From Serinicoccus chungangensis (lineage in GTDB: Bacteria; Actinomycetota; Actinomycetes; Actinomycetales; Dermatophilaceae): a DNA stretch of 64,000 bases. Of this stretch, positions 17,577 to 64,000 are shown in pieces. A model generated the notes under the pieces. That model did no database searches. It saw nothing but the letters and a program-made list of their open reading frames with translations, and had not been told where the DNA came from. The stretch is from the NCBI RefSeq assembly GCF_006337125.1, contig NZ_CP040887.1, positions 2,170,001-2,234,000 of the forward strand. The letters run 5' to 3'. The first letter of the stretch is position 1; every line of letters begins with the position of its first letter. Both the position numbers and the translations under genes were made by a program.

Positions 17577-17943
17577 GGGTGGAGGTGGCGGGAATCGAAC
17601 CCGCGTCCGTTACCGGGAAATCAGGGCTTCTCCGGGTGCAGTGCGCTGTGGATTTTCTCGGCCCCAGGGCTCGCGCGCACACGTTCCCTGACAGGCCCAG
17701 TCGAGTAGAAGTCCCACGTGATCCCTCGACATGATCACGCAGCAAGTCACCTAGCTGATGCCAGGCACTGAGTCGGTGACGCGCTCAGGCTGACAGACTT
17801 CGGGCTCGCTCAGGCGGCGAGGGCGAAGTCGCTGCGCTTGGAATTGGCAGCTATTGGTTTCGCAAGGGGCGTTGACGAGATGACCTTGCATCCTCGACCC
17901 GCTTCCCCTGAAGTGCCGTGCAACGTCGAAACCGATCACCCCC
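17577..17943 (-). ncRNA. ssrA: Transfer-messenger RNA
   Basis: The 5' end GGGGGTGATCGGTTTCGACG and the 3' end CGGGTTCGATTCCCGCCACC then TCC form the tRNA-like domain; the 7-bp acceptor pairs GGGGGUG with CACCUCC. The tag frame is at 17848-17810: GCC AAT TCC AAG CGC AGC GAC TTC GCC CTC GCC GCC TGA, giving ANSKRSDFALAA. The discriminator A is followed by CC and then C, so the last base of CCA is not encoded. It rescues stalled ribosomes with SmpB, encoded ~550 bases upstream on the same strand. TTGACA at 17974-17969 is a fitting -35. The 3' end is adjacent to an integrase gene, consistent with use as the attachment site. Confidence 0.95.
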
Positions 17944-18070
17944 ATGGGGGTGTCTCACGCTGTGCAGTTGTCAACCAACCCGGGCACGCCCGGGCGACCC
18001 GATCGAGTCTACGCGGTCCAACGGCCCGACCACCACGGAGATTCCCGATCCACGTGAGAGGCTGCCGTGC

Positions 18071-18505
18071 ATGAGCTTCCCGGGAGCACCGGTCGATGAA
18101 GGACACCGCCAGGCGCTGCGACCGCTGGCCGTGGTCGTCGCGGCCATGGCGGGCGGGCTCGTCATGCTCGCCGTGGTCCTGGTGCTCGTCGGGGCCCGCC
18201 TGGAGACCCCCGACACCTGGCAGCTGGTCGTGGTGGGTCTGGCGACGCTGGGCTCCTGGGGACTGGCCCTGGCCGCCCCGCTCCCCCGGCCGAGCGGTCC
18301 ACCCACCCCCGCTCAGGTGCAGACGTCCGTGGTGCTGCGCGCCGCGATCCTGGAGGCGCCTGCGATGATCGGGCTCGTCCTGGCCTTCGTCAGCCAGCCC
18401 CTCAACCTGCTGGTCTACCTGCTTCCCGCGCTCTTCTCCCTGGGCGGGCTGTGGCTGTTCGCCCGCCCGTCCGTGGTGGCCCGTCGCCTCAGCCGTGCTT
18501 CTTGA
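18071..18505 (+). CDS. Four-TM membrane protein
   Basis: 144 residues with four hydrophobic helices (LAVVVAAMAGGLVMLAVVLVLVG; WQLVVVGLATLGSWGLALAAPLP; VVLRAAILEAPAMIGLVLAFVS; LNLLVYLLPALFSLGGLWLFA). The ATG at 18071 is chosen because the protein then starts with a short polar segment (MSFPGAPVDEGHRQALRP). Its last 17 bases overlap the end of smpB on the other strand. It diverges from ssrA across a short promoter region. No functional family recognized. Confidence 0.6.
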   Translation: MSFPGAPVDEGHRQALRPLAVVVAAMAGGLVMLAVVLVLVGARLETPDTWQLVVVGLATLGSWGLALAAPLPRPSGPPTPAQVQTSVVLRAAILEAPAMIGLVLAFVSQPLNLLVYLLPALFSLGGLWLFARPSVVARRLSRAS

Positions 18506-60942: not shown

Positions 60943-63900
60943 GTGACCGGCAGCCAGCAGCGGGAGAGCAGCCCCCAGGCCCCGGACCCGGCGACGGTGC
61001 TGGGCCGGTTCTCGGGGCCGACCCGGGCCTGGTTCGAGGCGTCCTTCGCCGGGCCCACCGCCGCCCAGCTGGGGGCCTGGGACGCCATCAGCCGCCGGGA
61101 GCACACGCTGGTCGTGGCCCCGACCGGCTCCGGCAAGACCCTGTCGGCCTTCCTGTGGGCCATCGACCGGATCGTCAGCGAGCCCCGGCCCGCCGCGGCC
61201 ACGTCGACGCCCCGCCGCCCGGCGGCCGCCCGGGGGTCGTCGACGACGTCGGCCTCCCCGTCCCCCGAGCCGCGGGGGCGGTGCCGGGTGCTCTACGTCT
61301 CCCCGTTGAAGGCGCTCGCCGTCGACGTGGAGCGCAACCTGCGCTCGCCTCTCGTCGGGATCGGCCACGCGGCGCGCCGGCTCGGGAGCGCCGCGCCCGA
61401 CGTGTCGGTGGCGGTCCGCTCCGGCGACACGCCGGCCGCCGAACGACGGGCCTTCGCCAAGGACGGCGCGGAGATCCTCATCACCACCCCGGAGTCCCTC
61501 TTCCTGCTGCTCACCTCGCAGGCCCGCAGCGCCCTCACCGGGGTCGAGTCGGTCATCGTCGACGAGGTCCACGCCGTAGCCGGGACGAAGCGCGGGACCC
61601 ACCTCGCCCTCACCCTGGACCGCCTCGACCACCTGCTGGAGCGGCCGGCCCAGCGGATCGGGCTCTCCGCCACCGTGCGGCCCGTCGAGGAGGTGGCGCG
61701 CTACCTGGCCGGCGGCCGGCCGGTGACGACCGTGCAGCCCCCGTCCACCAAGAGCTGGGACCTCGAGGTGGTCGTGCCCATCCCCGACATGGCCGACCCG
61801 GGAGCCGCCGACCGGCCGGACGCCCCCGGTGCGCCGGCCGCCGGCCGCAGCGCCAGCACGCCGCCGGGGAGCGCGGACTGGGAGCAGCAGGACGAGGAGC
61901 AGCCCGACCAGGAGCAGGACGCCCAGGACCAGGTGGGCGAGGGCCCGGTCCTGCCGGACCTGGACGACGACGGCGCGGCGCCCCTGGGCACGGGCCCGGT
62001 CCTGCCGGACCTCGACGGCACGGGACCGGGGGCCGAGGACGCCTGGGCACCGGCGGTGGACCCCGAGGAGCGCGCCTCCATCTGGCCGCACATCGAGCGC
62101 CGGGTCGCCGACCTCGTCTCGGGGCAGACCTCGACGCTCGTCTTCACCAACTCCCGTCGGGTGGCCGAGCGCTTCACCTCGCGCCTCAACGAGGAGTGGG
62201 AGGACCGCCACCCGCCGTCCGCCGAGGACCACGACGACGACCACGGGACCCGTATCGACGGCGCGGGAGGCGGCGGACGGCATACCTCCCGGACCCCGGC
62301 GCAGGTCATGGCGCAGTCCGGCGCGGGCGGCGGCGCCGCGCCTGTGCTCGCCCGGGCCCACCACGGGTCGGTCAGCAAGGAGCAGCGCGCCCAGATCGAG
62401 GACGCCCTCAAGACGGGGCAGCTGCCCGCCGTCGTCGCCACCAGCAGCCTCGAGCTCGGCATCGACATGGGCGCCGTCGACCTCGTCGTGCAGGTCGCGA
62501 GCCCGCCCAGCGTCGCCTCCGGGCTGCAGCGGGTCGGGCGCGCCGGGCACCAGGTCGGCGCCACCAGCCACGGCGTCTTCTTCCCCACCCACCGGGCCGA
62601 CCTGGTGCAGACCGCCGTCGTCGTCGACCGGATGCGGCGCGGCGCGATCGAGCAGCTGGCCGTGCCCACCAACCCGCTCGACGTCCTGGCCCAGCAGGTC
62701 GTCGCCGTGCTCGCGATGGAGGACTGGTCGGTCACGGAGCTCTTCGAGCTGGTGCGGCGCAGCGCCTCCTACGCCGCGCTCCCCCGCTCGCTCTTCGACG
62801 CCGTCCTCGACATGCTGGCCGGGCGCTACCCCGGCGAGGACTTCTCCGACCTGCGCCCGCGCATCGTGTGGGACCGGGTGACGGACACGCTCAGCGCACG
62901 GCGGGGGGCGCAGCTGCTCGCGGTCACCTCCGGGGGCACCATCCCGGACCGCGGCATGTATGCCGTGATGCTCGCCACCGGCGAGGGCCCCGGTCGCCGG
63001 GTCGGCGAGCTGGACGAGGAGATGGTCTACGAGTCCCGCGTCGGTGACGTGTTCACCCTGGGCACGACCAGCTGGCGCATCGAGGACATCACCCACGACC
63101 AGGTGCTCGTGACCCCGGCGCCGGGGCAGATCGGCCGGCTGCCCTTCTGGAAGGGCGAGTCCCTCGGGCGCCCGGCCGAGCTCGGAGCGGCGGTCGGCGC
63201 GTTCGTGCGCCACGTGGCCGGGCAGCCCCGGGAGGCCGCGCTGGGTGAGCTGGCCGAGCAGGGTCTCGACGGCTTCGCCGCCGACAACCTCCTCACCTAC
63301 CTCGGCGACCAGCGCGAGGCGGTGGGCCACCTGCCCGACGACCGGACCATCGTCGTCGAGCGCTTCCGGGACGAGATCGGCGACTGGCGCGTCGTCGTGC
63401 ACTCCCCCTGGGGCAGCCCGGTGCACGCCCCCTGGGCGCTGTGCCTGGCCGCGCGGATGCGCGAGCGCTTCGGCGCCGACGTGCAGGCGCTGGCCGCCGA
63501 CGACGGCATCGTCCTGCGCCTGCCCGACCTCGGCGGGTGGGACGACGCGGGCGGCACGGAGGGGTCGGAGGCGGCCCGGCTGGACGCCGAGATCGCCGAG
63601 CTGCTCACCCTCGACCCGGACGAGGTCGCCGACCTCGTGACCCAGGAGATCGGTGGCTCGGCGCTGTTCGCCGCCCGCTTCCGCGAGTGCGCCGCGCGGG
63701 CTCTGCTCCTGCCCCGCCGCAACCCCGGCAAGCGGCAGCCCCTGTGGCAGCAGCGGCAGCGCTCCGCGCAGCTGCTCGAGGTGGCCGCGCGCTACCCCAC
63801 CTTCCCCATCGTGCTGGAGGCGGTGCGCGAGTGCGTCCAGGACGTCTACGACGTGGACGCCCTGCGGGAGCTGATGCGGCGGCTGGCCGCCCGCGAGGTC

Positions 63901-64000
63901 CGGCTGGTCTCGGTCGCGAGCCAGCGCCCCTCCCCCTTCGCGTCCTCGCTGCTCATGGGCTACATCGCGCAGTTCCTCTACGAGGGGGACTCGCCCCTGG
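60943..64000 (+). CDS. lhr: Lhr-type DEAD/DEAH-box helicase (3' end outside window)
   Basis: Starts at GTG 60943 (MTGSQQRESSPQ); at least 1019 residues are visible. RecA1 has VAPTGSGKTLSAFLWAIDRI, VLYVSPLKALAVD, ILITTPESLFLLL, VDEVHAVAG and RIGLSATVRP. RecA2 has STLVFTNSRRVAERF, AHHGSVSKEQRAQIED, VATSSLELGIDMGAVDLVVQ and LQRVGRAGHQVG. A winged-helix and Lhr-core region follows, as in Mycobacterium Lhr. Between the RecA domains is an acidic Asp/Glu/Pro-rich insertion with a repeated GPVLPDLD unit (~residues 295-365). It is expected to unwind DNA/DNA or RNA/DNA substrates in repair. No stop is seen before the window ends. Confidence 0.93.
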   Translation, partial: MTGSQQRESSPQAPDPATVLGRFSGPTRAWFEASFAGPTAAQLGAWDAISRREHTLVVAPTGSGKTLSAFLWAIDRIVSEPRPAAATSTPRRPAAARGSSTTSASPSPEPRGRCRVLYVSPLKALAVDVERNLRSPLVGIGHAARRLGSAAPDVSVAVRSGDTPAAERRAFAKDGAEILITTPESLFLLLTSQARSALTGVESVIVDEVHAVAGTKRGTHLALTLDRLDHLLERPAQRIGLSATVRPVEEVARYLAGGRPVTTVQPPSTKSWDLEVVVPIPDMADPGAADRPDAPGAPAAGRSASTPPGSADWEQQDEEQPDQEQDAQDQVGEGPVLPDLDDDGAAPLGTGPVLPDLDGTGPGAEDAWAPAVDPEERASIWPHIERRVADLVSGQTSTLVFTNSRRVAERFTSRLNEEWEDRHPPSAEDHDDDHGTRIDGAGGGGRHTSRTPAQVMAQSGAGGGAAPVLARAHHGSVSKEQRAQIEDALKTGQLPAVVATSSLELGIDMGAVDLVVQVASPPSVASGLQRVGRAGHQVGATSHGVFFPTHRADLVQTAVVVDRMRRGAIEQLAVPTNPLDVLAQQVVAVLAMEDWSVTELFELVRRSASYAALPRSLFDAVLDMLAGRYPGEDFSDLRPRIVWDRVTDTLSARRGAQLLAVTSGGTIPDRGMYAVMLATGEGPGRRVGELDEEMVYESRVGDVFTLGTTSWRIEDITHDQVLVTPAPGQIGRLPFWKGESLGRPAELGAAVGAFVRHVAGQPREAALGELAEQGLDGFAADNLLTYLGDQREAVGHLPDDRTIVVERFRDEIGDWRVVVHSPWGSPVHAPWALCLAARMRERFGADVQALAADDGIVLRLPDLGGWDDAGGTEGSEAARLDAEIAELLTLDPDEVADLVTQEIGGSALFAARFRECAARALLLPRRNPGKRQPLWQQRQRSAQLLEVAARYPTFPIVLEAVRECVQDVYDVDALRELMRRLAAREVRLVSVASQRPSPFASSLLMGYIAQFLYEGDSPL

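Follow-up and report, generated by a model that had tools for sequence, protein, structure and literature searches.

The stretch analysed here, which we call the window, comprises 64,000 nucleotides (positions 2,170,001-2,234,000) of the genome of Serinicoccus chungangensis (G000; one contig, 3,463,442 bases), a member of the Serinicoccus/Ornithinimicrobium group; NCBI places both genera in the Ornithinimicrobiaceae, Micrococcales. Positions 1-17500 of the window hold an integrative element with a TrwC relaxase-helicase (5609-9451) and a phage-type integrase (16158-17360), and a gene cluster for a Tad/Flp pilus lies at about 31.0-35.8 kb. Scattered over the window are copies of a short DNA word, a candidate DNA uptake sequence, which is the subject of this analysis: we refer to GGTATGCC and its reverse complement GGCATACC as the octamer, to GTATGCCG as the core and to GGTATGCCG as the nine-base form. 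An earlier reading of the window (the original prediction) had listed 22 octamer copies, split 12 to 10 between the orientations; all 22 were recovered at the listed coordinates, with the same balance.

Markov models of orders 1-3 expect 0.8-1.4 octamers in the window. A fourth-order model expects 6.8 against the 22 observed; orders 5 and 6 give 19.7 and 21.9, because models of these two orders contain the word's own 6- and 7-mers. Genome-wide, the octamer occurs 612 + 595 times and the same word read backwards 8 + 4 times. We also sampled 464 kb of the genome, made up of the window and 20 stretches of 20 kb each (13% of 3.46 Mb). This sample holds 163 octamers against 5.1, 8.1 and 7.8 expected at Markov orders 1, 2 and 3, with 2-12 copies in each of the 20 stretches.

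The better-conserved unit is the core, often preceded by G and followed by T or C: in the sample, 132 of 163 octamers continue with G at the ninth position and 120 with T or C at the tenth, giving the extended word GGTATGCCGY. Flanking positions out to 20 bases carry at most about 0.2 bits each, which makes this a word of nine to ten bases and not a longer dispersed repeat. The octamer differs from its own reverse complement and is thus not a palindrome, and logos of the word show no CTG. The core occurs 666 + 670 = 1336 times in 3.46 Mb, about once per 2.6 kb.

It had been proposed that the target of whatever acts here is the DNA word and not the encoded protein. We called 318 genes in the sample with a simple codon-usage script (77% of the 464 kb) and compared them with 100 synonymous-codon shuffles within genes, in which the rare codons brought by the word were retained. 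The genes contain 109 octamers against a shuffle mean of 9.2 (maximum 18) and 131 cores against a mean of 9.7 (maximum 14), an excess of about 12-14-fold. This comparison, of the kind that the original prediction had named as able to refute it, leaves the claim standing. The word does force rare codons, as had been claimed: 64 of the 115 TAT codons (56%) and 20 of the 33 ATA codons (61%) of this 73% GC sample lie within it. Copies occupy all six strand/frame combinations, also as claimed, if unevenly (33, 32, 17, 10, 10 and 7 of 109). They also occur outside genes, with 54 in the 107 kb beyond called genes, a fraction that includes uncalled genes, against 109 in the 357 kb inside. The proposal of an action on the DNA word is supported: the excess survives synonymous shuffling, the word brings in rare codons, its density is higher outside called genes and the strands are balanced. 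Alignments of two loci with relatives (14 comparisons) show TATG/CATA kept in 38 of 46 cases inside the word and in 32 of 65 outside it, these cases being non-independent because sites recur.

These data bear on the alternative that mutation bias, the usage of codons or codon pairs, or dispersed repeats produced the word as a by-product. Codon-like over-represented words are common in these genomes and lend the idea some appeal. The shuffles yield 9-10 copies where 109-131 are seen, the flanks are hardly conserved past 9-10 bases, and the reversed word is rare: as a full explanation the by-product is refuted. The excess over Markov orders 1-3 and over synonymous shuffles likewise rules out an artefact of codon usage or of the Markov models.

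Orientation was compared with the direction of replication, as the original prediction had proposed. The contig has DnaA motifs at about 0.7-1.5 kb, and cores in the sample number 38 forward and 50 reverse in the first half of the chromosome and 45 forward and 44 reverse in the second. This amounts to no replichore bias (82 vs 95, p 0.37), and strand totals over all family genomes with at least 300 copies are 64,250 and 64,466. Of the roles that had been suggested for the word, an uptake-like signal fits best; the balanced orientation speaks against a recombination hotspot of the Chi type. A Chi-like recombination or repair signal would be read by a nuclease-helicase of the RecBCD/AdnAB type, with words that differ between lineages as the specificity of the enzyme drifts. 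The density and length of the word are of the right order for such a signal, and Chi words do vary between bacterial groups. E. coli Chi is strongly oriented along replication, at about 75%, a value with which 95 of 177 is incompatible (p 9e-10), and the replacement of a word within one genus, described below, would be fast for a housekeeping enzyme. We consider a Chi-like signal highly unlikely.

The word is widespread among close relatives. In the genus, 30 genomes out of 31 have at least five times as many cores as reversed words; G022 (27 + 23 cores, control 10 + 5) does not. The preferred flanking bases vary among five genomes of the genus that were sampled. A survey of the order covered 297 genomes, 24 of them in the same family, of which 14 have more than 1,000 cores. 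None of the other 273 exceeds 177 cores, and the genome with that number also carries the reversed word 135 times; small counts at 3-4 times the reversed word occur in a few of the 273, for example 39 vs 10 (table read by eye). We then scored a family set of 119 genomes from 53 genera, counting the word as present at 140 or more copies and 2.4 times the control. The word is present in 73 of the 119 at this threshold and in 65 at 300 copies.

We searched genome samples for other over-represented 8-mers against a Markov model of order 3. In five samples from word-bearing genomes, the core or the octamer ranked top in four and TATGCCGT in the fifth. From some genomes that lack the core, other words of equal size were recovered. 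G022 carries GGTAGCGGC (33 vs 3.6 expected in 132 kb), which occurs 625 times in its whole genome and 22-100 times in 11 other genomes; the reversed form, with 257 copies, stays below the word in G022 and lies above it in the 11 others. G345 carries GGATGCCGGT (29 vs 0.7 expected in 100 kb) and G370 carries CGATGCGGTG (33 vs 2.0 in 100 kb; 529 genome-wide vs 15-75 in 11 others). Reversed CGATGCGGTG is rare in all 12 genomes (3-29), so that the comparison across genomes is the better control. In four further genomes (G380, G343, G355 and G166), words resembling GTACGCCG or GTACGGCG exceed expectation at most 2.5-4.9-fold. They are tentative dialects at most and may instead reflect a general enrichment of GTAC words, as related GTAC words rise together. 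No clear word was evident in the 60 kb sampled from each of G389, G394, G390, G336 and G356.

Some over-represented words in these searches are of another kind. G014, which belongs to a different family of the order, has 21 copies of ACGACGCCG vs 2.2 expected in 40 kb (L155-L156), sometimes after T-rich sequence; this is possibly another word system or a terminator element. The top word of G018, also from another family, was rejected as a word system: its flanks show a period of three and look like codon repeats. The over-represented 10-mers GGTCTCGATA and TACTCGACCA of G355 (L103-L105, L145-L148) and G166 (L125-L127, L149-L152) probably belong to an interspersed repeat.

No other single argument for uptake is as strong as dialect switching: the rewriting of hundreds of sites in one lineage is to be expected under biased uptake followed by recombination, and a binding or modification site would hardly account for it. 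Dialect switching weighs on the proposal that the word is the binding site of a nucleoid or chromosome-segregation protein needing about 1200 sites. The balance between strands and the presence of copies in every stretch sampled suit such a protein. Patchy presence within the family does not suit it, and the word changes in G022, G345 and G370 would require hundreds of sites to be rewritten without a transmission advantage; we regard this role as very unlikely.

A solitary DNA methyltransferase or a regulatory modification system could also target the word, which would then be kept for its mark in the manner of HIP1 (GCGATCGC), a palindromic octamer repeated throughout cyanobacterial genomes. 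Cyanobacteria are known to have over-represented words that carry methylation, and HIP1 resembles our word in being a genome-wide octamer. Our word, unlike HIP1, is not palindromic and its edges are soft, and modification systems usually make their words rarer. Judged by the sequence alone, a methylation target is a very unlikely reading.

We put the probability that GTATGCCG, extended to GGTATGCCGY, is a DNA uptake sequence at about three in four. It would belong to an independent system comparable to the DNA uptake sequences (DUS) and uptake signal sequences (USS) of other bacteria, apparently the first in Gram-positives. With somewhat more reserve, we think it probable that this is a third, independently evolved system of tagged uptake, the first in a Gram-positive phylum, that it works through the Tad/Flp pilus, and that it has at least four dialects in one family and a switch inside one genus, a change of dialect forming a barrier to gene exchange. 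What the sequences show is the word, its excess at DNA level, its balance and spread, the differing words of sister lineages, and the comEC and Tad genes of the hosts; from these we infer uptake as the acting process, a part for the Tad pilus in it and a receptor that reads the word. Competent cells would take up free DNA through ComEC, ComEA and, presumably, the Tad/Flp pilus, and a putative surface receptor would prefer fragments that carry the word. Such fragments would recombine into the chromosome, so that copies born by mutation would be transmitted preferentially and the word would accumulate. It would build up on both strands wherever constraints on protein and DNA permit, and less in foreign DNA. 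As the preference of the receptor drifted, the word of the genome would drift with it, giving rise to dialects that separate lineages genetically.

The candidate uptake machine is encoded widely in these bacteria. In the genus, 29 of the 31 genomes scored have comEC (PF03772), as do 115 of 119 in the family, and a ComEA-like gene with SLBB and helix-hairpin-helix domains precedes it in both loci tested. The window contributes the Tad/Flp cluster, which begins with the gene for the motor ATPase TadA (Table 1). An ortholog of this TadA, at a threshold that accepts partial and split matches, is present in 101 of the 119 family genomes. The word is present in 69 of these 101 genomes and in 4 of the 18 others (Fisher p 0.0004), or in 61 of 101 and 4 of 18 at 300 copies (p 0.004), both tests ignoring kinship. 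Beside the cluster, and divergent from tadA, the window encodes a 1282-residue protein with FHA and FtsK/SpoIIIE domains (35789-39637), whose gene contains three copies of the word.

Table 1 Word copies, pilus genes and hairpin in the window.
Feature	Position	Strand	Remark
GGTATGCCG copy	6229..6237	+	inside integrative element
GTATGCCG copy	11336..11343	-	T before; inside integrative element; outside the original count
GGTATGCCG copy	20682..20690	+	
GGTATGCCG copy	22856..22864	+	
Inverted word pair (25090-25098, 25108-25116) in stem of strong hairpin	25079..25128		fold
GGTATGCC copy	26919..26926	+	
GGTATGCC copy	27129..27136	-	
GGTATGCCG copy	28525..28533	-	
GGTATGCCG copy	30961..30969	+	
TadG-like protein	ends 31028 (block 31028..32372)	-	named by place
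TadE-like pilins	31986-32372, 31552-31989	-	PF07811, E 1.4e-5 and 0.0015 (latter below cut-off)
GTATGCCG without leading G	31866..31873	-	
Flp-like pilin, 67 aa	32374..32577	-	no Pfam match; named by place and sequence
TadB and TadC membrane proteins	32571..34420	-	PF00482 in open frames scanned; reading frames chosen
TadA-type pilus motor ATPase, first cluster gene	34395..35783	-	PF00437, E 4e-38
GGTATGCCG copy	37029..37037	-	
GGTATGCCG copy	39067..39075	+	
GGTATGCCG copy	39390..39398	-	
GGTATGCCG copy	40698..40706	+	
GGTATGCCG copy	41829..41837	-	
GGTATGCCG copy	41998..42006	-	
GGTATGCCG copy	42622..42630	+	
GTATGCCG without leading G	start 43460	-	
GTATGCCG without leading G	start 44376	+	
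GTATGCC	start 49297	+	
GGTATGCCG copy	52311..52319	-	
GGTATGCCG copy	52601..52609	+	
GGTATGCCG copy	58643..58651	+	
GGTATGCC copy	59567..59574	-	
GGTATGCCG copy	60577..60585	+	
GGTATGCCG copy	62278..62286	-	
GTATGCCG without leading G	start 62958	+	

In two genomes, G002 (L046/L047) and G029 (L048/L049), an element of about 40 kb interrupts comEC, and a gene for a serine recombinase (Resolvase and Recombinase domains) adjoins the 3' part of comEC in both. The break falls at the same position of the profile (about 30-37), which suggests that comEC is the attachment site of the element. No relatives of the recombinase were confirmed in viral contigs. Mobile elements are known to insert into competence genes, which has been explained as a defence against curing by transformation (PMC4774983). 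By analogy, the interruption of comEC by such elements suggests that the machine does transform.

Other interruptions were seen in the same genes. The comEC of G363 shows a split of 28 kb at a similar point; the first part of the gene lies on another contig or is missing in G400 and G418. The tadA match is in two pieces in G331 (C43:9239-21503, about 11 kb apart) and in G347 (C23:365840-401846, about 35 kb apart), which suggests insertions into the same machine. In G345 (L196) and G380 (L198) the tadC match ends early, at residues 249 and 283 of 309, where those of G344 and G370 reach 306-307. A replacement of the pilins in these two genomes was considered and dropped: no pilus gene follows the shortened match, so that the pilins may lie beyond the stretch examined. 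An element is possibly inserted at tadC in both; of three open frames near tadC in G380, two match no phage family and one does so weakly (E 3e-4, 2e-3). For G022, where comEC is out of frame near a contig end, a loss of competence with decay of the word was entertained at first; the discovery of GGTAGCGGC pointed to a dialect switch instead, and the break in comEC may be an assembly fault.

Several observations weigh against the uptake reading. On the side of the machine, ComEC is similarly frequent in genomes with and without the core; being nearly universal, its presence does not explain the patchiness of the word and is ruled out as its cause. G021 has an in-frame deletion of about 140 residues in the membrane part of ComEC (L045 8041-10041), and yet its word is abundant. 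The core is missing from 32 of the 101 genomes with a TadA ortholog. Conversely, no TadA ortholog was recognised in four word-bearing genomes (G024, G254, G391, which is 68% complete, and G393, 73%), and in G028 no Tad cluster was found in the stretch examined. None of the four pilin-like proteins stands out as a receptor candidate across 21 genomes: in eight genomes inspected, the charge of their heads ranges from neutral to acidic, and those of G022 are not unusually diverged, so that neither divergence nor charge picked out a receptor. The receptor may therefore lie elsewhere, for example in another Tad cluster (near 408-413 kb of G000) or in ComEA.

On the side of the word, the best sample z for GGTAGCGGC is 15, near the z of 10 reached by a codon-like word in G389; the dialect of G022 therefore rests mainly on the comparison of counts across genomes. 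G332, a congener of G370, does not share the enrichment of CGATGCGGTG (75 copies). Nine of the 32 genomes that have TadA and lack the core were sampled: G345 and G370 have a clear word, the words of G380, G343, G355 and G166 are weak, and no clear word was found in the samples of G389, G394 and G390. Depletion of the word in mobile DNA is modest. The original prediction had noted one copy in the mobile element, and there is one octamer in these 17.5 kb, though two copies of the looser GTATGCC. The latter compares with 26 in the other 46.5 kb (binomial p 0.017), and in two other genomes the prophage pieces taken from the elements within comEC hold 2 copies in 25.6 kb vs 11 in 30.4 kb of flanks (p 0.047). 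Finally, the open-access literature matches listed include no report of transformation for these genera.

Known uptake words occur in hundreds to several thousand copies (PMC5031613). The closest parallel is the DUS of the Neisseriaceae, ATGCCGTCTGAA, which has eight dialects and is read by the minor pilin ComP (PMC3630211, PMC5031613, PMC12616744). Both systems combine a short word at about a thousand copies, dialects between genera, a type IV filament and ComEC; strand balance, the excess at DNA level and an inverted pair in a hairpin match as well (PMC3630211). They differ in phylum, in the Gram-positive host and in the word, as the CTG of the DUS core is absent here; the ATGCCGT common to both is probably due to chance. 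The filament proposed here is the Tad/Flp pilus, and ComP was not identified, no search for ComP relatives having been made. The USS of the Pasteurellaceae, AAGTGCGGT, is a nine-base word with hundreds to thousands of copies and two types (PMC12616744, PMC5031613). It resembles our word in length and copy range and differs in that word and host group are unrelated and that conservation of the flanks beyond the word is slight here. A described machine of this kind is that of another actinobacterium, Micrococcus luteus, in which transformation proceeds through Flp pili and ComEC (PMC4322843). It has tad clusters, comEA and comEC and the same kind of pilus genes as the window; the term "uptake sequence" has 0 occurrences in PMC4322843.

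Sequence-tagged uptake has so far been described from two Gram-negative families. Among the open-access matches listed, mostly titles, we found no earlier report of uptake sequences in actinobacteria or these genera or of GGTATGCC, and none for GTATGCCG together with "uptake sequence", where a match by title concerned mariner vectors. If the reading is right, self-recognition during transformation would have evolved repeatedly, and natural transformation would be predicted across a family for which the matches listed contain no report of it. The addition of the word (GGTATGCCGT) to donor DNA would then be a simple genetic tool for these hosts, and the existence of several dialects would help to find the receptor and to test whether a change of dialect splits lineages.

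Copies of the word also form close pairs: the sample contains six pairs less than 60 bases apart, five of them oppositely oriented. One such inverted pair lies in the stem of the hairpin in Table 1. The fold of the 79 bases 25062-25140 has an energy of -56.7 kcal/mol (z -6.5), matched by none of 200 shuffles. Inverted DUS pairs at terminators are reported for the Neisseriaceae. The hairpin lies between convergent genes (22423-25062 on the plus strand and 25140-26252 on the minus strand) and is terminator-like by position; termination is only a suggestion, because no T run follows the hairpin. The first of the two genes encodes an 879-residue protein with lamin-tail and endonuclease/exonuclease/phosphatase domains, possibly a secreted nuclease.

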